64,000 nt of DNA, taken from the IMG/VR virus record IMGVR_UViG_3300031578_000005, positions 62,001 through 126,000 of that record; one strand, 5' to 3'. This DNA is from a virus. Every line of letters starts with the position of its first letter. The stretch's first letter is position 1. Shown here one piece after another: positions 10,215 to 52,368 of the stretch. Both the position numbers and the translations under genes were made by a program. The notes beneath the pieces were generated by a model that was given only the letters and a program-made list of their open reading frames with translations, was not told the origin of the DNA and made no database searches.

Positions 10215-10300
10215 AATGTGAATTGAAAAATTCACAAAGTTCATTGACATACTGGTTTTTGGTAATCAAATAAAACTACCTGCTCGTGGTGATTACCGCA
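10215..10300 (+). other. Intergenic stretch with two small hairpins
   Basis: GTGAATT/AATTCAC closes over four A residues near 10218-10235, and GGTAATCA (10261-10268) pairs with TGATTACC (10290-10297). Possibly a small structured RNA or 5' processing signal before the tRNA. No ORF. Confidence 0.35.
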
Positions 10301-10341: not shown

Positions 10342-10430
10342 ATCGGAATGCTTGAGTGGTTTAAAAGCGTGGTCTGCAAAACCAATGGTAATCAATGAAT
10401 TACACGTGAGTTCGAATCTCATTTCCGATT
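10342..10430 (+). tRNA. Long-variable-arm tRNA with GCA anticodon
   Basis: Acceptor ATCGGAA/TTCCGAT is perfect. The D-arm (CTTGAGTGG...) and the long variable arm (GTAAT/ATTAC) are of the Ser/Leu type. The anticodon loop CTGCAAA gives GCA at 10376-10378 (cysteine); one mismatch at the stem base. Body and anticodon disagree on identity. Confidence 0.72.
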
Positions 10431-10475
10431 CAAAGTTAATTTAAGTTTAAACTATTTATGTAAAATGTTATTAAC

Positions 10476-11084
10476 ATGATACCAATATTATATACAAAAA
10501 GAATTAAATCATTAATTAAAGAGGAATTAAATAGGCTTATTGTTGAAGTTTTTGAAGGTGAATTGAATACAAATTATCAAGAACTATCACAAAAATATGA
10601 TACATATAATGTAATTACATATAGGTTTGAAACCAATTCAAAAACCTCATATGATTTGGAATTTATTTTTAATTATGTTTTAGGTAATGAAAAAATGTCT
10701 GATGGTTCAGAACTATATACACACATATTAAACATGAAACGTACTGATTACATGGAAAGTATTGATATTGGATTTACATTAAGTGATAGAATCAATAATT
10801 TTGGTTTAGATTCTATCGAAGCTAATGAATTTACAAAGAATTCAAATAAGAACGAACCAATCGAATTAATGGGTCGTATTAGCTATTTAATTAAAATGTT
10901 TATAAATTCTAATGAGAATATCAATATTTTTATTGTCGGTAAAAATACTGATAGGAGTAAATTAAAAATTTACAGAACAATATTTAAAAATATCTTTAGC
11001 AATAATTTCATCCTTTTAGAAGGTGAGCATCATGGCTATAATGATGGTGCTTTATATTTCATAAAGAAAACAATATTGACTTAA
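10476..11084 (+). CDS. Hypothetical protein with virion-leader-like N-terminus
   Basis: 202 aa, not recognised. It begins with an amphipathic stretch, RIKSLIKEELNRLIVEV, similar in kind to the start of the ADP-ribosyltransferase-like protein at 19399 (IIKEEFSKLF); such leaders resemble capsid-targeting sequences of large phages (inference). The rest is mixed alpha/beta without Cys motifs or membrane segments. It stands alone inside the tRNA region. Confidence 0.65.
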   Translation: MIPILYTKRIKSLIKEELNRLIVEVFEGELNTNYQELSQKYDTYNVITYRFETNSKTSYDLEFIFNYVLGNEKMSDGSELYTHILNMKRTDYMESIDIGFTLSDRINNFGLDSIEANEFTKNSNKNEPIELMGRISYLIKMFINSNENINIFIVGKNTDRSKLKIYRTIFKNIFSNNFILLEGEHHGYNDGALYFIKKTILT

Positions 11085-11256
11085 AATATTAAAGTCTGTG
11101 TTTTGCATATATTGCTATAATATGTAGATTATTGCAAAACATAAACAGTTATTAATATGCTAGTGTTGCTTTAATGGTTTCATATTTAAATTTTATTATA
11201 AAAACTCGAAAATTTAATTTCGAATCATTATTTGTGCACAAAAATAAAAACTATTT

Positions 11257-11329
11257 GGACATATAGCTACAATGGTAGAGCGTCATCCTGTTAAGTTGAA
11301 AGGTCTTGGTTCGAATCCAAGTATGTCCT
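11257..11329 (+). tRNA. tRNA-Asn(GTT)
   Basis: Acceptor GGACATA/TATGTCC, D-arm AGCTACAATGGTAGAGC, GTT at 11290-11292 in loop CTGTTAA, T-arm CTTGG/CCAAG. One mismatch in the anticodon stem. Confidence 0.85.
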
Positions 11330-11339
11330 CATTTTAATT

Positions 11340-11413
11340 ATCCGTGTATATCAATTGGTTAGATGAACACCCTGATAAGGTGTGGGTTGGTGGTTCAAGT
11401 CCACCCTCGGATA
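11340..11413 (+). tRNA. tRNA-Ile(GAT)
   Basis: Acceptor ATCCGTG/CTCGGAT with one T-T pair, anticodon arm with CACC/GGTG around CTGATAA, GAT at 11374-11376, T-loop TTCAAGT, discriminator A. Confidence 0.85.
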
Positions 11414-11428
11414 CAAAATAAAAATAAT

Positions 11429-11502
11429 GCAGGTAACGCATAAATGATGGTGCACCAGTTTACCAAACTGGAATAGAGTCGGTTTGATTCCGATTACCTG
11501 CT
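11429..11502 (+). tRNA. tRNA with ACC anticodon (Gly)
   Basis: Acceptor GCAGGTA/TACCTGC is perfect; anticodon stem CCAGT/ACTGG with loop TTACCAA, ACC at 11462-11464. A34 in a glycine anticodon is rare in bacteria. The T-loop is TTTGATT, diverged from TTCRAnY. Confidence 0.7.
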
Positions 11503-11565
11503 CATTTACAATTAGTTGAAAATACATTTAGAATGTATTAAAATGAGTTTTGGCTCATTAACATT

Positions 11566-11670
11566 TTATCGTTGACGGAGTGGATTAACGTTGATACGAT
11601 ACTAAAGTCTGAGAGTGATAGTACGTTATCAATACTCAAGGACTCATGGGTTCGAATCCTGTACGATAAT
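11566..11670 (+). tRNA. tRNA-like, long variable arm, anticodon stem not pairable
   Basis: Acceptor TTATCGT (11566-11572) pairs perfectly with ACGATAA (11663-11669). TGACGGAGTGGATTAACGT is a Ser/Leu-type D-arm; GAGTGATA can pair with downstream TATC...ACTC as a long variable arm; the T-arm ATGGGTTCGAATCCTGT is normal. No 5-bp anticodon stem forms, so the anticodon cannot be read. Possibly decayed, or interrupted by a small insert. Confidence 0.45.
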
Positions 11671-11676
11671 TATTAC

Positions 11677-11769
11677 GGTAGAGTACTCAAATTGGTAAAG
11701 AGGTTTGTCCTGAAAACAAATAGGTCGTGTGATGAGCATGATGCGTGGGTTCGAACCCCACTTCTACCT
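11677..11769 (+). tRNA. tRNA-Ser(TGA)
   Basis: Acceptor GGTAGAG/TTCTACC, anticodon stem TTTGT/ACAAA perfect, TGA at 11711-11713, long variable arm as expected for Ser, T-loop TTCGAAC. Position 33 is C. Confidence 0.85.
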
Positions 11770-12034
11770 CAAACAATTTAACCTGCAAGTTATTTTGTTT
11801 CTCATACAATACTATAAACAAGTTGTTATTGCAGTAATGAATTGATGTAAAGTATGTGTAAATTTTGGGTTGCATAAGAGGCTTTATTTTAATGTTCTGT
11901 GGATTGTTGTATTATACCCGTGGTTGGCAACTCGGAAAATAAGAAAACATTTGAGAGACATTATTATACTTGTAAAATGGTATTGAATAAGTGAGTAGGA
12001 GGCTCACCCCAAAATTTTTAATTTATTATTAAAT

Positions 12035-12109
12035 AGAGATGTAGCTGAGTAGGTTTAGCACCAGTTTGAAGGTCTGGGATTAACGTGGGTTCGATTCCCA
12101 CCGTCTCTA
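12035..12109 (+). tRNA. tRNA-Phe(GAA)
   Basis: Acceptor AGAGATG/CGTCTCT, D-stem GCT/AGC, anticodon stem CCAG/CTGG, GAA at 12068-12070, T-loop TTCGATT, discriminator A. Confidence 0.85.
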
Positions 12110-12224
12110 CACAAGGTCTTATGAATGTTATTAATTAAACATATTATATTGTTACAATTATATATTACATTATTTTTATGAATTATTTAGTATTTATATT
12201 AAATTCGTCTATAAGACATGAATT

Positions 12225-13454
12225 ATGCAATTAGTTGAACAACATATTATCAATCGTAATCATATATTCTATAATGAATGTGATTCGTTATGTTTTAAAA
12301 CTAAAAATCTATATAATTCATGTTTATATGTCATACGTCAGGCATATATCAATGATAAGGTTAATTTATTATATGATTTACACTCATTAATGAAAGATAC
12401 TGAACAGTATAAAGAACTACCCGCTAAAGTGTCTTCCACAGTGTTGTTAATGATTCAAAAGAATTTCAAATCTTATTTCAAATCAAATGCAGAATTTTAT
12501 AAAAATTCATCTAAATTTAAAGATAGACCTAAATTACCCAATTATTTGGATAAAATAAATGGTAGATATTTTGCTTCATATACAAATCAAGCCATATCAA
12601 AAAAAGTGTTTAATAAATCACATAAAATATTATTATCTAAAACCAACATCGAGTTAACAACCAAAATAGTTGATTTTAATATCATCGATTGTGTTAGAAT
12701 TGTACCGAGATTAGACCACTATGTTATTGAAATAGTATATACCATTCCAGATAAACCTAAATTACCTAACAATAATAAATATTTATCTATTGATTTTGGT
12801 GTTAATAATTTAGCAACAATAACGTCAAATGTTAAAGATGTTAAACCTATTATTATTAATGGTAGACCATTAAAATCAATTAATCAATATTATAACAAAA
12901 AACTGGCACACTATAAATCTAAATTAGAATTGATTAATAAAAAGAAACATAGCAATAGGACAAGGAAATTGACTAACAAAAGAAAAAATAAAGTTGATTA
13001 TTATTTACATAAAGCAAGTAAGACAATTGTTAGTTTAACAAAAAACAATAATATTAACACCATAATAATAGGTAAGAACGATAATTGGAAACAAGGTATC
13101 AACATGACAAAGGCTAATAATCAAAACTTTGTTAATATACCACATAGTAGATTTATAGATATGATTATTTATAAATGCGAAATAGAAGGAATCAATGTTA
13201 TACTACAAGAAGAAAGTTACACAAGTAAAGCATCTTTTTTAAACTTAGATAATATACCTATTTATGGTGATAATCAAAAAAAGCATTTCAGTGGTTATCG
13301 TTATAACAGGGGTTTATATAAAATAAGAGGAAGAAAAGAATTTATTAATGCAGATGTGAATGGTAGTTATAACATATTAAGAAAAGCAATCCCAAAAGCA
13401 TTTGCTGATGGGATAGAGGGTATAGGAGTATATCCAATTAAACTTATGATTTAA
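12225..13454 (+). CDS. tnpB: TnpB-like RNA-guided nuclease (IS200/IS605 OrfB family), zinc-ribbon-less
   Basis: 409 aa with TnpB landmarks: N-terminal KTKNLYNSCLYVIRQAYI, the RuvC aspartate of YLSIDFGVNNLA (about D190), the second acidic site in QEESYTSKASF and the last in NADVNGSYNILR. The usual CxxC zinc pairs between the last two motifs are absent; even the Cys common after TSK is Ala. TnpB proteins cut DNA guided by an RNA transcribed from the element's 3' end. No TnpA transposase is nearby, so the copy is non-autonomous or kept for homing or other use. It splits the tRNA cluster; a GAGGGA/TCCCTC hairpin follows at 13488-13525. Confidence 0.85.
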   Translation: MQLVEQHIINRNHIFYNECDSLCFKTKNLYNSCLYVIRQAYINDKVNLLYDLHSLMKDTEQYKELPAKVSSTVLLMIQKNFKSYFKSNAEFYKNSSKFKDRPKLPNYLDKINGRYFASYTNQAISKKVFNKSHKILLSKTNIELTTKIVDFNIIDCVRIVPRLDHYVIEIVYTIPDKPKLPNNNKYLSIDFGVNNLATITSNVKDVKPIIINGRPLKSINQYYNKKLAHYKSKLELINKKKHSNRTRKLTNKRKNKVDYYLHKASKTIVSLTKNNNINTIIIGKNDNWKQGINMTKANNQNFVNIPHSRFIDMIIYKCEIEGINVILQEESYTSKASFLNLDNIPIYGDNQKKHFSGYRYNRGLYKIRGRKEFINADVNGSYNILRKAIPKAFADGIEGIGVYPIKLMI

Positions 13455-13481
13455 TGAAAAAATAATATTTTATATTATTTT

Positions 13482-13527
13482 AAACTCTGAGGGAGTCCTT
13501 TAAAGATATAAATAACCTGTCCCTCTC
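13482..13527 (+). mobile_element. Possible right end / guide-RNA 3' structure of the tnpB element
   Basis: GAGGGA and TCCCTC arms (about 13488-13494 and 13519-13525) enclose 24 nt just after tnpB and end at the next tRNA gene. Position fits an omega-RNA 3' hairpin; sequence differs from the hairpins at 15.4-16.1 kb. Confidence 0.35.
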
Positions 13528-13530
13528 CAT

Positions 13531-13603
13531 GCAGCATTGGTGTTTAACGATAGCATATGACTCTTCCAAAGTCGAGGTTTCGGTTTGAATCCGAAATGCT
13601 GCT
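13531..13603 (+). tRNA. tRNA-Gly(TCC)
   Basis: Acceptor GCAGCAT/ATGCTGC perfect, anticodon stem TGACT/AGTCG, TCC at 13565-13567, T-arm TTCGG/CCGAA. Confidence 0.85.
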
Positions 13604-13616
13604 CTCTTATTGATAT

Positions 13617-13690
13617 TGTGGTGTAGCATGATTGGTTTATGCATCTGTCTTATACACAGGAGATTAAGGGTTCAAGTCCCTTCACCACAA
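13617..13690 (+). tRNA. tRNA-Ile(TAT)
   Basis: Acceptor TGTGGTG/CACCACA perfect, D-stem GCAT/ATGC, anticodon stem TCTGT/ACAGG, loop CTTATAC with TAT at 13651-13653, discriminator A. An unmodified-type AUA decoder; bacteria usually use CAT with lysidine. Confidence 0.78.
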
Positions 13691-13791
13691 CAAAAAGGTT
13701 GGAAATACGAAAATCAAAGCAGTAACTTTGAGAAGTAAATATTATACCTTCTATGAAAAATGAATTTTACTGATGAAATTTAGTAGTAGTT

Positions 13792-13863
13792 GTTTTATTA
13801 GCATAGCGGATAGTGCGTCTTGCGTTGAGCGAGAAGAGCTTGGTTCGAATCCAAGATAAGATC
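13792..13863 (+). tRNA. tRNA-Gln(TTG), probable
   Basis: Acceptor GTTTTAT/ATAAGAT with two G-T pairs, D-stem GCA/TGC, anticodon stem TCTTG/CGAGA, loop CGTTGAG with TTG at 13825-13827, T-arm CTTGG/CCAAG. Position 33 is G, not U, so the anticodon reading is less certain. Confidence 0.65.
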
Positions 13864-13925
13864 AAAATTCCTCAATGGAAAGTAGATTTGTTTGTTACGA
13901 TATTATAACTATCTTTACAAAAAAA

Positions 13926-14826
13926 ATGATTATGAAAAGAATTATGTTTTTAACATTTATTTTATTATCAACAATAGCATTTTCGGCAACATATTCTTCA
14001 ATCACCTCTGGTGATTGGAATATTGTTGGAACATGGAATAATAGCATACCAGTTGATGCAAATAATAACATTGTAACAATTAGCGCAGGACATACTGTAA
14101 CTGCAACTAATTTAATTTTTAATAACAGATTTACAATTAATATTGAATCTAGTGCTACATTAATAATTTATGCAAATCCTGTTGATGGAGATGCAATAAC
14201 AGTTAAAAATAATTTAACATTAAATATTGCTGATGGTGGATTAATAATTATTAGCGGTAATTTCAAAGTTAACTGTTGATGGAACATTAACAATTGATGG
14301 AGATTTATCTGCGGGAAATGGTTCGGTATTATTAGGAACTGGAAACGTTACTGTTACAGGAACTGTAACCGGGCCATCAGGATTTGTAACTGATTCACAA
14401 TTGCCTGTTGAATTATTATATTTTAACGCATATTATCAAGATGATGCTGTCGTAATTAATTGGGCAACAGCAAGTGAAACTAATAACGATTATTTTGCTA
14501 TTGAATATTCAGCTAATGCTCAAAATTGGTATTTTCTAACAAAAATAAATGGTGCTGGTAATTCTAAAATCAAAATTGATTATACCTATAAGTATAATGC
14601 CAATAATGATAATTATTACAGGCTTACACAGGTTGATTATAACGGCAAATCAGAAATCTTTACATCTGATATTGTGTATGTTAGCACGCATTATCTAAAC
14701 AAAAACATTAACTATGATATCTATGATATTAATGGTAGATATTTAGGAAATAAAGCAATTAAAAATTTACAGCATGGTATATTTTTAATTAAAAACGACA
14801 ATGAATTTAAGAAAATAATTCATTAA
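13926..14826 (+). pseudogene. Frameshifted secreted protein with type IX secretion sorting domain
   Basis: The first frame (from ATG 13926; an ATG at 13875 gives a less likely leader) has a signal peptide MKRIMFLTFILLSTIAFSA and a Thr/Asn-rich beta-repeat region with SGDWNIVGTWNN, ending at a stop at 14277-14279. The adjacent frame continues without a gap (VDGTLTIDGD) into LPVELLYFNAY, VVINWATASETNNDYF, YYRLTQVDYNGKSE and IYDINGRYLG...GIFLIKN, the hallmark of a T9SS type A C-terminal sorting domain. One-nucleotide shift near 14260-14275. Together about 300 aa: a Bacteroidota secreted or surface protein, probably host-derived, now broken or needing frameshifting. Confidence 0.75.
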
Positions 14827-14833
14827 TTGTAAT

Positions 14834-14918
14834 GCCGATGTCGCATAGTTGGTCAATTGCGCCACACTTGTAATGTGGAATCGTAAGAATGTCGTGGGTT
14901 CGAATCCTACCATCGGCT
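14834..14918 (+). tRNA. tRNA-Thr(TGT) with extended variable region
   Basis: Acceptor GCCGATG/CATCGGC perfect, anticodon stem CCACA/TGTGG perfect, loop CTTGTAA with TGT at 14869-14871, T-loop TTCGAAT. The variable region is about 14 nt, longer than usual for Thr, with little stem. Confidence 0.8.
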
Positions 14919-14947
14919 CTCACTTTAACATAATAAATAACTGAAAT

Positions 14948-15349
14948 ATGAGTTTACAATCAAAAATTAGGACTGACATGGTAGCTGCCATGAAATCCAG
15001 AGATACTGAAACATTGTCATTATTAAGAGTTGCTGCTGGAGAATTTGGAAGGAAAATGAATAACGGCATTGAGCTTCCTGATAACCAAGTAATTGCAATT
15101 CTTAGAAAGATGTGTGAAAATGCTGTTGAAATGGGAAATTTTGGTGAAGTTGAGATTCTCAATAGATACATCCCCAAAATGCTTGATAAAGACCAAACAA
15201 AGGATATTATCGTAGATATTGTCAATAAGAATGGTTTTTCTGGAATTAAGGATTTGGGTAAGATCATGAGTGAATTAAAAAAGATATCTATGGCATCACA
15301 AGTTAATGGCAAATTAGCGAGTGATATTGCCAAACAAATTTTGCAATAG
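14948..15349 (+). CDS. YqeY/GatB-tail domain protein
   Basis: 133 aa, slightly short for the YqeY family (about 150). Family features: MSLQSKIRTDMVAAMKSRD at the start, TLSLLRVAAGEF, the motif EILNRYIPKML, then GIKDLGKIMSELKK and NGKLASDIAKQIL. Related to the C-terminal domain of the GatB amidotransferase subunit, which contacts tRNA; the free-standing protein has no firmly assigned reaction. It starts 30 nt after tRNA-Thr within the tRNA region, which suits a role in tRNA binding or charging (inference). No promoter of its own is evident. Confidence 0.85.
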   Translation: MSLQSKIRTDMVAAMKSRDTETLSLLRVAAGEFGRKMNNGIELPDNQVIAILRKMCENAVEMGNFGEVEILNRYIPKMLDKDQTKDIIVDIVNKNGFSGIKDLGKIMSELKKISMASQVNGKLASDIAKQILQ

Positions 15350-15365
15350 TATTTATAAACAGGAG

Positions 15366-15408
15366 AGTAAAACCAATTCATCGCTTTAGCGTGGATGGGA
15401 TGTAAGCG
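15366..15408 (+). mobile_element. IS605-like right-end hairpin, copy 1
   Basis: CCAATTCATCGC-TTTA-GCGTGGATGGG forms a stem with one bulged T, the same fold as the copies at 15.62 and 16.07 kb. The terminal TTCAC seen in those is not preserved, so this copy is the most diverged. Confidence 0.35.
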
Positions 15409-15544
15409 ACAAACGTAAGTTTAACCCTGATTTACAGTATTTTACAGAAAAATTAAAAAACTTTAAAGTGAAAGCAACTTTTTGTATATTTATACGTATT
15501 TAATAATATATGCTAAAGTCATTTAAATATTAAGAACTTTGCGT

Positions 15545-15659
15545 TAAGAAATAATGTATCTGGGACGGATACTAAAACTCGGAACGAACTGCCTACATTA
15601 GTAGGAGTGTTGACTTCCGAAGTCCAACCCATCAGTTTTGCTGTGGGTGGGTAGTTCAC
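15545..15659 (+). mobile_element. IS605-like right end / omega-RNA-like remnant, copy 2
   Basis: The 3' part at 15618-15658 has the layout GAAGTCCAACCCATCAG-TTTTG-CTGTGGGTGG-GTAGTTCAC, matching the right-end hairpin and terminal TTCAC typical of IS200/IS605 elements, where it also forms the 3' end of the TnpB guide RNA. About 75 nt of structured sequence precede it. No tnpB ORF lies directly upstream. Confidence 0.55.
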
Positions 15660-15695
15660 AAGTAAATAACATTATTAATTATACAAACATGAAAA

Positions 15696-15929
15696 GTGAT
15701 GAGGGTCCTAAGCAGAGAAAAAACAGCAACATTGTTCTTATTTTTAGGAACATTTTTCAACCCTTTGGGTTACGATGCCCTTTTAAAATGGCTAATGGAT
15801 ACGACAGGGAGTTATTGGTTTTCAATTTCTATTTTTTACCTGTTATCTCTATCATGCTTTATCTCATACTTTGCCTTGGCTAAGATAAATCCATTTAAAT
15901 TAATAAAAATTAGAAAAAATAAGAAATAA
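15696..15929 (+). CDS. Small membrane protein with two helices
   Basis: 77 aa. A hydrophobic helix at about residues 10-26 (TATLFLFLGTFFNPLGY) and another at 40-62 (FSISIFYLLSLSCFISYFAL), then a Lys/Arg-rich tail. Family not recognised by name. It lies between two IS605-like right ends, so it may be cargo or a bystander. Start at ATG 15696 (MMRVLS); an ATG-led shadow frame at 15638 is not coding. Confidence 0.55.
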   Translation: MMRVLSREKTATLFLFLGTFFNPLGYDALLKWLMDTTGSYWFSISIFYLLSLSCFISYFALAKINPFKLIKIRKNKK

Positions 15930-15979
15930 TTAGTAATAGTTATTTCTTATTTTTGTAATTTGTCAGTAATAAGACATTA

Positions 15980-16110
15980 AAACCTCGTTAGGGACTAACG
16001 AGTACACGAGTGGAGTAAAAGTAAGACTTCTAGCTCTTCAGAGCAGTAAGCAAATTGCTGTGAAACTCGAACCCCAATCCATCAGCTTTGCTGTAGGTGG
16101 GTGGTTCACA
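15980..16110 (+). mobile_element. IS605-like right end / omega-RNA-like remnant, copy 3
   Basis: CTCGTTA/TAACGAG hairpin at about 15984-16002, a GCAG/CTGC hairpin near 16044-16060, then ACCCCAATCCATCAGC-TTT-GCTGTAGGTGGGTGGTTCAC ending at 16108. Same terminal layout as copy 2, with intact TTCAC. The complete multi-hairpin body suggests a nearly full guide-RNA scaffold. No adjacent tnpB. Confidence 0.55.
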
Positions 16111-16131
16111 AAAATTGTTATATGAGAAAAC

Positions 16132-16205
16132 GTTCGGTTAGCATAATTGAATAATGCACGGCATTTCTAACGCTGCGACTACAGGTTTGAATCCTGTACC
16201 GAACA
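16132..16205 (+). tRNA. tRNA-Arg(TCT)
   Basis: Acceptor GTTCGGT/ACCGAAC perfect, D-stem GCAT/ATGC, anticodon arm CGGC/GCTG with loop TTTCTAA, TCT at 16166-16168, T-arm ACAGG/CCTGT, discriminator A. Confidence 0.82.
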
Positions 16206-16216
16206 CAATAAAAAAT

Positions 16217-16290
16217 ATATGTGTAGATCAATTGGATTAGTGCCTCACGTTCCTAAAGTGAATATTATGAATTCGAATCTCATTAGTTAA
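16217..16290 (+). tRNA. Degenerate tRNA-Arg(CCT)-like sequence
   Basis: Anticodon stem TCAC/GTGA with loop TTCCTAA (CCT at 16252-16254), D-arm GATCAATTGGATTAG and T-loop TTCGAAT are present, but the acceptor halves do not pair. Either decayed or needing end repair. A better CCT tRNA follows at 16334. Confidence 0.42.
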
Positions 16291-16333
16291 AACATGAATA
16301 TACTATTAGCGAGTCCCGTCTCCGTCACTAAAT

Positions 16334-16405
16334 GTTCCCATAGTTTAATTGGAAAAATTTGGATTTCCTAAATCTAAGACTCAGGTTCAACTCCTGATGG
16401 GAGCA
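16334..16405 (+). tRNA. tRNA-Arg(CCT)
   Basis: Acceptor GTTCCCA/TGGGAGC, anticodon stem TGGAT/ATCTA, loop TTCCTAA with CCT at 16367-16369, T-arm TCAGG/CCTGA with loop TTCAACT, discriminator A. Confidence 0.8.
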
Positions 16406-16436
16406 CAATAAATTTTAACAATTAAAACTTAAAAAG

Positions 16437-16712
16437 ATGAATATAATTAAAATTGAAAATGTAAAACAAATAACGGGGTTTCAAAATCGACTTGAGATCA
16501 AATCTGATTATAAGTATTCTTCAGAAAATTCGATAATGGCTATCTTAAGTGATGATGATATTAATAATGATAATTGCTTAGTTAAATTAAGAGGATATGT
16601 TATCAACATATTATTATTACCAAAAAGATATAAATATACTTTTAATGAAACTAAAACTGGTGAACTAATTGCAATACAATTAAGTAAAAATTGTGTTATT
16701 AGTTATTATTAA
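16437..16712 (+). CDS. Hypothetical protein, 91 aa
   Basis: Not recognised. Predicted mostly beta, with several hydrophobic strands (VKLRGYVINILLL) and no Cys pair, signal or membrane helix. It sits between tRNA-Arg(CCT) and tRNA-Arg(TCG), 4 nt before the latter's upstream flank, so it is probably part of the tRNA transcript. Confidence 0.6.
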   Translation: MNIIKIENVKQITGFQNRLEIKSDYKYSSENSIMAILSDDDINNDNCLVKLRGYVINILLLPKRYKYTFNETKTGELIAIQLSKNCVISYY

Positions 16713-16715
16713 CAT

Positions 16716-16787
16716 GTCCCCATAGTTTAATTGAAAAAATGAAAGTCTTCGAAACTTAGGATATCGGTTTGACTCCGGTTGGGGATA
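16716..16787 (+). tRNA. tRNA-Arg(TCG)
   Basis: Acceptor GTCCCCA/TGGGGAT, anticodon arm AAGT/ACTT with loop CTTCGAA, TCG at 16749-16751, T-arm ATCGG/CCGGT with loop TTTGACT, discriminator A. Confidence 0.8.
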
Positions 16788-16799
16788 CGAAATATAAAC

Positions 16800-16920
16800 G
16801 TCTCTATGGTGTAATTGAATAGTACAATTTTACGAAAATAAATATGTGCCTGTATCGCACTTCGCTACGAACGAAGAGAAGCGTAATTGGATACATGTGG
16901 GTTCGAGTCCCATCGGGCAT
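16800..16920 (+). tRNA. Composite tRNA-like structure with an Arg(ACG) anticodon arm
   Basis: The region has a D-arm-like segment (GGTGTAATTGAATAGTAC) at the 5' side, a perfect anticodon arm CTTCG-CTACGAA-CGAAG (ACG, about 16867-16869) and a normal T-arm (GTGGG/CCCAT) at the 3' side, but 121 nt in all. TGTATC/GATACA and CGC/GCG stems surround the ACG arm. Reads as two tRNA halves fused, or a tRNA with a structured insert. Function doubtful. Confidence 0.4.
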
Positions 16921-16942
16921 TCAAAAATAATTAATGTTATTT

Positions 16943-30330: not shown

Positions 30331-30349
30331 TCTTTATGTGAGGCTACAA

Positions 30350-30423
30350 GTGTAGCACCCCGGCCCCCTCAGAGGGGGGGTCTAACGGGGGGGTGTAAGG
30401 GGGGGATACGTAGGGGGTGGGGT
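30350..30423. promoter_or_regulatory. G-run cluster (predicted G-quadruplex) with C-rich arm
   Basis: On the + strand G-tracts of 7, 7, 7, 5 and 4 (30374-30380, 30387-30393, 30399-30405, 30413-30417, 30419-30422) are separated by 5-7-nt loops, with a C-run (30358-30368) just before that can pair with the first tract. In so AT-rich a sequence this is striking. It lies between the end of the rightward block and a leftward gene. Confidence 0.8.
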
Positions 30424-30519
30424 GTATATATGTTAAAACCATATAAGACTTAAATAAACCCAGCAAATTCGAAAGATAATATAAAAGTAATACATCACAC
30501 CCATTTAGGATAGGAATTA

Positions 30520-42862: not shown

Positions 42863-43159
42863 ATGAAAAAGTTAATCAGTCAAGATAAAATTGATACTGC
42901 GGCAGATCAATACGCTAGTGCACTTTATAATAGTTTTGACGATATCCGTGGATATAGTGTTGCTGAAACTGGTTTTCAAAATGGCTGTGAATTTGTTGAA
43001 AAAGAATTTGAACAATTTGCAGTTGATTTTGCTGATTTTCTTAAAGATATTGTTATTGACGTAAATCCATTTGGTGACAATAAATGGGTATGTATTGATG
43101 GCACGGATAAAAGTTCTAAAGAACTATTTGATGAATTTATTAATAGCGATTCTTTGTAA
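42863..43159 (+). CDS. Hypothetical acidic protein, 98 aa
   Basis: Not recognised. AADQYASALYNSFDDIRGYSVAETGFQNGCEFVEKEFEQFAVDFADFLKD; helical and acidic. Stop inside the -35 box of the ncRNA promoter. Confidence 0.64.
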   Translation: MKKLISQDKIDTAADQYASALYNSFDDIRGYSVAETGFQNGCEFVEKEFEQFAVDFADFLKDIVIDVNPFGDNKWVCIDGTDKSSKELFDEFINSDSL

Positions 43160-43183
43160 CATTTCCTGATATCATACGTATTA
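43155..43183 (+). promoter_or_regulatory. Phage-type promoter for a non-coding transcript
   Basis: TGTAAC 43155-43160, N16, CGTATTA from 43177. No ORF follows for 400 nt. Confidence 0.82.
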
Positions 43184-43189
43184 TTAACT

Positions 43190-43532
43190 GTAAGCAAGCT
43201 AAGCTTGCAAAAACAAATGCTCTTTAAATCTTAAACTATGTTAAACATGAATAGACCAATAAGAGGTTCCCCATAAAAGATGGATATAGATAAATATGAT
43301 ATAATAAGATAGATAGACGGTAATTAAAAATTCGTTCGGTATCTGCCCTCGGCTTTGGGAAACTGGCCAGTCCCTGCCAATATATGAATGCTTTCGGCCC
43401 TCGGAAATATTTTAATTGTCCTCAACCCACCAAGGTGATCGGACACAACCGAAAGCGCAAATAATACCATCGGGCACTCTCGAACGAAATTTTATCCCTC
43501 ACAGACGAATTTAAAAAATCTGTGAGGGTTTT
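43190..43532 (+). ncRNA. Structured non-coding RNA, about 340 nt with terminator
   Basis: Between promoter and terminator there is no ORF. The core closes with TTCGTTCG (43331-43338)/CGAACGAA (43481-43488); inside are TGCCC/GGGCA (43344-43348/43472-43476), a hairpin GGC-GGGA/TCCC-GCC (43351-43378) and a long arm GCTTTCGG/CCGAAAGC (43390-43397/43449-43456) topped by TGTCC/GGACA. G+C is well above its surroundings. It does not match RNase P, tmRNA or 6S signatures I know. Probably a new RNA class. Confidence 0.72.
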
Positions 43533-43534
43533 TT
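43496..43534 (+). terminator. Intrinsic terminator of the ncRNA
   Basis: CCCTCACAGA 43496-43505 with TCTGTGAGGG 43519-43528, perfect 10 bp, then T-run. Confidence 0.93.
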
Positions 43535-43835: not shown

Positions 43836-44013
43836 TAACGATATATGTGATGATTAATTCTCACATGGTGTTATGCAAGTGGGCTAATGAAAAATCAGTT
43901 CTGCCCCGAAACAAAAAACTCCAAGTGGTTAGGCCACCAGAGGTTATATGATGCTTTAGGGTTTTAAGTGAAAAATATAACCAGTTGAGAATTATGCATA
44001 ACGGAATGAAGCG
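43836..44013 (+). ncRNA. Candidate structured RNA
   Basis: TAATTCTCA (43855-43863) pairs with TGAGAATTA (43986-43994); GTTATGC (43870-43876) can also pair with GCATAAC (43996-44002); GTGG-TTAG-GCCAC and GGGC/GCCC hairpins lie inside. A frame crossing it (43757-43951) does not look coding. Promoter before, terminator after. Confidence 0.5.
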
Positions 44014-44043
44014 ATGGGTGTTTAATTTAAACACCCATTTTTT
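44014..44043 (+). terminator. Intrinsic terminator
   Basis: ATGGGTGTTTA with TAAACACCCAT (44014-44038), perfect 11 bp, then T6. Confidence 0.92.
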
Positions 44044-45445: not shown

Positions 45446-46273
45446 ATGAAATTTGAAAGTATTGGCAATGCAGCAAAACAAGTGGGTGTAGCTTATTTAG
45501 GCGGGGTTAATGCCAGCGCAAAACTTGAAAAGAATTTAAAAGTTGGTCAATATACCTATGGGTTATATTTAGCACCGGCAATGACAAGTGGTTTTAATGT
45601 TTGTGAGGGTTCAACCCCTGAATGCCGTTTAGGTTGTTTAGCCACAAGTGGCAGGGCAGGAATGGAATTACTTGCGGGCAAAGTTAAAACTCAAAATTCA
45701 CGGATTAAAAAAACCCGTTTGTTTTTTGAACAACCCGTATTTTTTATGCAGTGGTTAATTGCTGAATTGAGTTTTTATCAGGCCAAAGCAAAAAAGGATG
45801 GTTATGGTTTTTCAGCCCGTTTAAATTGCACAAGTGATATTGACTGGGCAAATGTAAGATTTCAGGGCAAAAACATCTTTGAAATATTTCCTGATGTAAA
45901 TTTTTATGATTACACCAAAATACCTACGAAGTTTTTCAATAAACCCGAAAATTATCATTTAACATTTTCATATACAGGTAAGAATTGGGGTGTTTGTGAA
46001 AAACTCCTAAACAAAGGCAATAGTATTGCCGTTGTGTTTAATGTTAAAAATGAATTGGGATTGCCAGAAACATTTAACGGGTTCAAGGTTGTTAACGGCG
46101 ATCTAACCGATTACAGACCAAATGATGGCAAAGGTGTTATTATCGGGTTAAAATGGAAACGTATTGCAGATAAGATCAACGAAAAACAGATTTTAAATAG
46201 TTGTTTTGTGGTTAATCCTTTAACCTATGTTCAACCTAAAAAGGTCAATGTACATGAACTGGTTTTGGCTTAA
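45446..46273 (+). CDS. GP88-family phage protein
   Basis: 275 aa. GQYTYGLYLAPAMTSGFNVCEGSTPECRLGCLATSGRAGM...VKTQNSRIKKTRLFFEQPVFFMQWLIAEL...RLNCTSDIDWANVRFQGKNIFEIFPDVNFYDYTKI matches the gene-product-88 family first named from mycobacteriophage, including the C-x-x-x-C-R-x-x-C cluster (residues about 54-66), which may bind metal or an iron-sulfur cluster. Role unknown. Not membrane-bound. Followed by a terminator. Confidence 0.85.
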   Translation: MKFESIGNAAKQVGVAYLGGVNASAKLEKNLKVGQYTYGLYLAPAMTSGFNVCEGSTPECRLGCLATSGRAGMELLAGKVKTQNSRIKKTRLFFEQPVFFMQWLIAELSFYQAKAKKDGYGFSARLNCTSDIDWANVRFQGKNIFEIFPDVNFYDYTKIPTKFFNKPENYHLTFSYTGKNWGVCEKLLNKGNSIAVVFNVKNELGLPETFNGFKVVNGDLTDYRPNDGKGVIIGLKWKRIADKINEKQILNSCFVVNPLTYVQPKKVNVHELVLA

Positions 46274-51671: not shown

Positions 51672-51886
51672 TATCAGCAGTATTCTTGAAGACAGTAATA
51701 CATAAGTGCACATAAAATTTACTGTCTTGGTTGAAGTCAGATAATAAAATTGGGGTTGCTCCTATAATAAAAATCTGATGGGGGGTCACTCCCCTCTACT
51801 GTTGCAAAATAAGATGTTTTGTTGTTTTATCACGTGCAAAACAATTAAATGCGTTAGTATAATAGTTTGCAAGAAAAAACTAACGC
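51672..51886 (+). ncRNA. Multi-hairpin non-coding leader before a tRNA
   Basis: No ORF. Hairpins: GACAGTAA/TTACTGTC (about 51690-51725), TCAGAT/ATCTGA (about 51738-51779), a GGGG/CCCC hairpin near 51781-51795, and GCGTTAGT/ACTAACGC (51851-51886) abutting tRNA 51888. Looks like one structured transcript ending in tRNA. Confidence 0.5.
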
Positions 51887-51887
51887 T

Positions 51888-51961
51888 TGATGTGTAGCTC
51901 AGTTGGTTAGAGTACCTGCTTAAACTGTAGGAGGTCGTGGGTTCAAGTCCCATCACATCAT
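51888..51961 (+). tRNA. tRNA with AAA in anticodon position
   Basis: Acceptor TGATGTG/CACATCA perfect, D-stem GCTC/GAGT, anticodon stem CCTGC/GTAGG, T-arm GTGGG/CCCAT. The 7-nt loop is TTAAACT, so positions 34-36 are AAA (51922-51924). A34 anticodons other than ACG are rare in bacteria; shifting by one base gives AAC (Val) but needs an abnormal loop. Amino acid left open. Confidence 0.7.
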
Positions 51962-51982
51962 CAAGAAAATATTAATGTTCAT

Positions 51983-52010
51983 TGTAACATTTTCACATTG
52001 TACACGTATA
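51983..52010 (+). promoter_or_regulatory. Phage-type promoter
   Basis: TGTAAC 51983-51988, N16, CGTATA from 52005. Drives the next tRNA-like gene. Confidence 0.8.
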
Positions 52011-52032
52011 TATAATCGAAGTTCTTTAACAT

Positions 52033-52126
52033 GGCACTTTTTGCAAATATTGGTTTTGCAATCTATTCATGAAGGGTTAACCGAAGTATGATAGAATCAA
52101 TGTGGGTTCGATTCCTGCAAGTGCTA
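52033..52126 (+). tRNA. tRNA-Met(CAT)-like, long variable region
   Basis: Acceptor GGCACTT/AAGTGCT, D-stem GCA/TGC, loop TTCATGA with CAT at 52069-52071 in a stem with one mismatch, T-arm with TTCGATT loop, discriminator A. Variable region of about 22 nt is not typical of Met. Confidence 0.55.
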
Positions 52127-52129
52127 CGA

Positions 52130-52300
52130 GAAAACCAACCGTTGATTCTCCCCTGATTGGGGACACGTTGAACAGTACTTGTGTAGAGTAACACGAATAG
52201 TAAGGCTATTAAGGCAGCTTCACGAACTGCGTCCTGTTAAGATGCGTGACGGCAATGGTTACTCAGAGGTAGAACGTCCTACCATGACGACTGAGTAAAA
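52130..52300 (+). other. Structured non-coding stretch with tRNA-like fragment
   Basis: CCCC/GGGG, GCAG/CTGC and TTACTCAG (52258-52265)/CTGAGTAA (52291-52298) hairpins; the last encloses CGTC-CTACCAT-GACG, an anticodon-arm-like hairpin. No T-arm, so not a complete tRNA. Confidence 0.4.
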
Positions 52301-52368
52301 AACTTTTCTGGTGTTTTGAAACTCATTTATGAAGAATCGAACGAACATCAGAAAAGTTTTTCTTTTTT
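52298..52368 (+). terminator. Long terminator hairpin
   Basis: Arms 52298-52315 and 52344-52361 pair over 18 bp with wobbles, 28-nt loop, then a T-run that runs into the next -35 box. Confidence 0.85.

Follow-up and report, generated by a model that had tools for sequence, protein, structure and literature searches.

A probable stand-alone gene for an orphan structured untranslated RNA in a large phage with a likely Bacteroidota host

Our analysis indicates that a large phage probably carries a real non-coding RNA (ncRNA) gene, here called RNA1, whose transcription we infer. RNA1 occupies bases 43154-43528 of a 64,000-nt stretch of phage DNA (the window), itself a segment (62001-126000) of a virus record 128.5 kb long. 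It is a promoter-to-terminator unit holding about 340 nt (343 nt) without a credible open reading frame (ORF). With its own promoter and terminator, no ORF and structure above chance, RNA1 has the makeup of a stand-alone ncRNA gene, and further undescribed RNAs with promoters in these phages raise our confidence in it. Taken together, the evidence supports RNA1 well as a phage ncRNA gene, although it is an orphan, and its region turns over rapidly.

All features of RNA1 lie on the plus strand. Its phage-type promoter (43154..43184) reads TTTGTAACA-N15-CGTATTAT (annotated as TTGTAACA-N15-CGTATTAT) and agrees at 15 of 16 positions with a promoter family, TTTGTAACA-N15/16-CGTATAAT, of which it is one of about 45 copies. 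Transcription is estimated to start at 43190-43192. Sequence and fold identify an intrinsic terminator with a perfect 10-bp stem, CCCTCACAGA/TCTGTGAGGG (43496-43528), and a T-run (43496..43534 in all). The longest ATG frame has 26 codons (43384-43464), the longest stop-to-stop frame on the plus strand has 46 codons, and tblastn with these frames gave no meaningful match in phages (best E ~5). A preliminary description of this DNA had proposed a phage promoter and a perfect terminator with no ORF between them, and this layout is borne out here.

The 5′ part of RNA1 is an AT-rich leader (43190..43324) that is weakly structured (z -2.0) and contains no ORF. Near its start is a hairpin, GCAAGC-UAA-GCUUGC (43194..43208), which was predicted in both the MFE and the centroid structure. 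The GC-rich core (43325-43492) is predicted to be closed by a perfect 8-bp stem, P1, pairing TTCGTTCG (43331..43338) with CGAACGAA (43481..43488) at a pair probability of 0.71. A 5-bp inner stem, P2, pairs TGCCC (43344..43348) with GGGCA (43472..43476; pair probability 0.94). Within it lie a short hairpin, H1 (43351..43378; GGC/GCC and GGGA/TCCC, pair probabilities 0.94-0.96), and a long arm, P3 (43390..43456), whose 8-bp base GCTTTCGG/CCGAAAGC (43390-43397/43449-43456) has a pair probability of 0.99. Besides P1 (8 bp) and the P3 base (8 bp), the only perfect stem of at least 6 bp in the core is a 6-bp alternative. Of 2000 dinucleotide shuffles, 0.25% contained two perfect 8-bp stems, one nested in the other, and the GC content of the core is 0.46 versus a local mean of 0.30, which places it in the top 0.5% of 215 windows. 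The whole unit has an MFE of -86.4 kcal/mol (z -4.1 versus 100 shuffles), a value that includes a contribution from the terminator. The core alone has a z of approximately -2.5 to -3.0; since this is equalled by 7% of local windows, folding energy alone is not decisive. The strong evidence for RNA1 is the GC contrast and the nested stems rather than the folding energy. The closing stem, inner stem, short hairpin, long arm with an 8-bp base and high GC content that had been described previously were all recovered in these analyses.

RNA1 falls outside known RNA families. Rfam 15 returned only tRNAs in the window at the gathering cut-off, and RNA1 gave only far sub-threshold matches at permissive E-values. 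RNase P, tmRNA, 6S, GOLLD, ROOL and other Rfam families were rejected as identities for RNA1, given that no covariance model matched at gathering or permissive thresholds; the preliminary description had likewise failed to match it to RNase P, tmRNA, 6S or GOLLD-type RNAs. Searches by blastn against collections of phages, plasmids and E. coli and against 50 related phage records gave no homologue, and neither did a 22-mer searched for in bacterial genomes. Three motif patterns scanned over all viral contigs returned only chance matches in coding sequence, plus the locus from which the motifs were designed. A single-sequence covariance model, built from the RNA1 sequence and its stems, retrieved nothing from 49 related records. 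Compensatory changes in relatives, which had been put forward as support for the pairing, were consequently not obtained, as blastn, motif and covariance-model searches yielded no homologue. The earlier reading is supported as regards an untranslated structured RNA outside known families and is conjectural as regards an RNA family with conserved pairing. Neither homologues without the pairing nor a conserved short ORF were seen.

GOLLD and ROOL resemble RNA1 in being phage-encoded, untranslated and structured RNAs of unknown function (PMC12286853). They occur in phages and prophages, often near tRNA islands, and GOLLD, unlike RNA1, is often longer than 800 nt (PMC12286853). In contrast to these RNAs, RNA1 is not matched by their Rfam models, and the main tRNA cluster of its phage is more than 25 kb away. 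A further comparison can be made with phage T4, since the virus record encodes a T4-type major head protein and terminase. The small stable RNAs C and D of T4 are structured and of unknown function; they are shorter than RNA1 and located in the tRNA cluster. A search of the phage collection showed no sequence relation between them and RNA1.

The relatives of this phage form a large uncultured clade with records of up to 365 kb. The host is likely a member of the Bacteroidota, because the isolates closest in head protein and terminase include Rhodothermus phage RM378 and Flavobacterium phage immuto. Tiny genes, many with their own phage promoter, crowd the right half of the window. The 98-aa gene at 42863, a neighbor of RNA1, was tried as an anchor, and no relatives were found for it. 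A useful syntenic anchor was observed in a 275-aa protein (45446-46273) of the phrog_1617/Pfam GP88 family, which is kept in several phages of the clade. The RNA1 locus lies in a genome region with fast turnover, in which an orphan RNA is unsurprising. RNA1 could also be a transcribed but functionless or decaying stretch of such an accessory region, as the lack of a homologue in any search and the equally relative-less 98-aa gene would suggest. Speaking against it are the promoter and terminator that RNA1 has of its own, its nested stems (0.25% of shuffles) and the strong GC contrast, and we consider this explanation unlikely.

A look-alike of RNA1 was observed in phage G011 (L206:15592-16096), as a promoter-terminator unit just upstream of the phrog_1617/GP88 orthologue. 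Its 5′ hairpin precedes AAAACAAA and an AT-rich leader; a closing stem of 12 bp includes GTTC/GAAC, and the branched, GC-rich core contains ATATGAATGC. Each of these parts is also present in RNA1. The two units share their part order upstream of a GP88-like gene, as well as ATATGAATGC and the GTTC/GAAC of the closing stem, and differ in length (505 nt versus 343 nt). They could be fast-diverging copies of one RNA family upstream of the GP88-like gene, given the common succession of promoter, 5′ hairpin, AAAACAAA, AT-rich leader, long GTTC/GAAC closing stem, GGC...GCC hairpin, ATATGAATGC, GC-rich arm and terminator. However, all of these shared features were chosen after the fact, alignment scores were mostly within the shuffle range (one of five scoring schemes gave z ~2.4), and the RNA1 covariance model did not detect the look-alike. 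A single family is possible but doubtful on this evidence. The look-alike was rejected as a proven homologue of RNA1, its similarity not being clearly above shuffles, and we treat it as a putative analogue or very diverged homologue that is not counted as support for the pairing.

The same comparison bears on whether RNA1 is instead a messenger for a short orphan protein, such as a basic peptide of 26 aa encoded at 43384-43464 (MNAFGPRKYFNCPQPTKVIGHNRKRK). A strong ribosome-binding site is not required in Bacteroidota, the start codon (ATG) falls where an AT-rich stretch separates two stems, a 46-codon frame is open, and an ATG frame of 53 codons occupies the corresponding place in the look-alike. 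Nevertheless, the frames of the two units do not resemble each other, neither matches in phages better than E ~4, and GC-richer sequence is expected to hold long open frames on both strands. RNA1 was rejected as a short coding gene because no frame is conserved; a coding function is unlikely, and we give the messenger reading very little credence.

A boxA-like element, GCTCTTTAAAT, was tentatively located at 43219..43229, +27 from the start. It agrees with the gammaproteobacterial boxA consensus GYTCTTTAANA (PMC5725501) at 10 of 11 positions, a match noticed after the fact. In rRNA leaders, boxB precedes boxA (PMC10250234), and the hairpin of the RNA1 leader precedes the boxA-like element in the same way. 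RNA1 resembles the boxB-boxA leaders of rRNA operons (PMC5725501, PMC10250234) in that a long untranslated RNA is preceded by a 5′ hairpin and then a boxA-like element. Allowing one mismatch at most, the plus strand of the window has nine boxA-like sites. Two of these, in RNA1 and in a unit at 52020, are no more than 40 nt from a promoter start, a zone comprising 3.1% of positions; both belong to ORF-free long-RNA units, and the match at 52020 is perfect. A host-type matrix was derived from the leaders of Bacteroidota 16S genes, in which AAGTTC[AT]TTGA is the common form of boxA. On this matrix the RNA1 site scored 1.0, compared with 20.2 at the window's best site; sites at 52020 and 10237 scored high. 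Because of its low score, the RNA1 boxA is possible rather than established, and antitermination in RNA1, unlike that of rRNA leaders, is putative. The best host-type boxA of the window (AAGTTCATTGACAT; 10237-10250) immediately precedes the tRNA cluster (10342-16921), which suggests that the phage tRNA operon may be subject to antitermination.

The loop of H1 provides a second possible clue to function. It displays a self-complementary sequence, CUGGCCAG (annotated as CTGGCCAG, 43363-43370), in a 10-nt loop. An 8-nt palindrome wholly within a hairpin loop was found in 1.9% of shuffles, and this feature was also noticed after the fact. Two copies of H1 are predicted to pair at -37.5 kcal/mol, compared to 2 x -8.7 for the separate hairpins, so CUGGCCAG could let two RNA1 copies pair. 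Multimers of OLE and GOLLD use symmetric kissing loops (PMC12286853), and dimerisation is for this reason the most concrete testable prediction of our analysis. As to a GOLLD/ROOL-like multimer, RNA1 shows one candidate loop, and the multimer itself is a prediction.

Based on these observations, the explanation that we favor is a stand-alone phage gene for a structured untranslated RNA that works as follows. RNA polymerase would start RNA1 at the phage promoter, and the 5′ hairpin and boxA-like element may recruit Nus factors, allowing the untranslated transcript to escape early termination until synthesis ends at the intrinsic terminator. The 3′ half would fold into the closed, GC-rich, branched domain of P1, P2, H1 and P3. 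RNA1 would then act in trans, possibly pairing with a second copy through the self-complementary H1 loop, and bind a host protein or ribonucleoprotein as a decoy or scaffold, rather than serve as an mRNA or antisense RNA. Computation establishes the promoter, the terminator, the absence of an ORF, the GC contrast and nested stems above chance; transcription and the function of boxA are inferences. We hold the explanation as a whole with somewhat less than even confidence; against it counts that no homologue, and hence no covariation, was found. The part that makes RNA1 a folded or dimerising protein-binding RNA is more tentative still, with dimerisation and partner both conjectural.

Alternatively, RNA1 could be a stable, terminator-ended small RNA (sRNA) whose AT-rich leader or loops base-pair with host or phage mRNAs. 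It has the promoter-terminator layout of an sRNA, a long unstructured AT-rich leader and a 21-nt stretch of imperfect complementarity to phage bases 2027-2047, which lie between two genes. However, its GC-rich closed core exceeds the needs of an sRNA, and its predicted pairing with 242 phage start regions was no better than that of shuffled RNA1. RNA1 was rejected as an antisense RNA to these start regions, and a role as predicted antisense to phage mRNAs is not favored; we regard the base-pairing reading in general as rather unlikely.

Other RNAs and elements were observed in the same phages. A second ORF-free promoter-terminator unit, RNA2 (43836-44042; z -3.1), lies right after RNA1. It has a 24-nt stretch around ACTCCAAGTGRTTAG in common with L212:11765-11788, which is part of an RNA of phage G036 (L212:11450-11995). 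Matches to an RNA2 motif in G016 and G053 were coding and were rejected as chance. Another ORF-free promoter unit (51678-51985) comprises a tRNA called with anticodon AAA after a structured leader of about 200 nt (z -3.7); this anticodon is unusual for bacteria. A very G-rich intergenic stretch with runs of 5-8 G (30340-30425) recurs in a similar place in several related phages (L204:2340-2430, L206:6040-6130 and L219:8670-8740), and is perhaps a replication, packaging or G-quadruplex element.

Two further groups of RNAs have relatives. Family A is a phage-promoter RNA found in the window (52020-52360) and in phages G004, G011, G017, G018 and G051 (L204:18737-19150, L431, L434 and, on the minus strand, L435 and L436). 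In four of the six genomes it starts with a tRNA-like domain. Next come AACCAACCG...CGGCAATGGTT (CCAACCG...CGGCAAtGGTT) and a 6-bp stem that covaries across all six genomes. The pairs of this stem are all standard in each genome, none of them is invariant, and five of the six pairs have changed on both sides. The window copy carries a perfect boxA, GTTCTTTAACA, at +1, and Rfam gave only a sub-threshold tRNA for the family. Family B is a phage-promoter RNA of about 90 nt present in at least seven phages, some of which have two copies, with the core GAGTAGACC...CTTATA.TCTG..TTTAGAATCATTCTAAATAA and a weak consensus fold. Its loci are L210:15988-16075, L211:375-470, L212:16170-16258, L206:19640-19735, L208:15296-15425, L209:442-530, L217:9576-9655, L214:12995-13085 (minus strand) and L204:8385-8480, and several copies lie just upstream of the phrog_1617 gene. 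Family A above all, and also family B and RNA2, are better starting points than RNA1. A more far-reaching proposal, which we find improbable, is that RNA1 would be the founding member of an undescribed class of phage RNAs that homodimerise and are protected by boxA, and that large Bacteroidota phages would carry a whole set of such RNAs (RNA1, RNA2 and families A and B) to take over a host ribonucleoprotein function.

In conclusion, ncRNA genes of phages are under-annotated because they evolve fast and have no ORF. The promoter with its approximately 45 copies, the terminators and the GC contrast single out such genes even without homologues. If these findings are confirmed, this phage group would offer tractable access to new RNA families, several of which have clear relatives, and a connection of boxA with long untranslated phage RNAs that can be tested.
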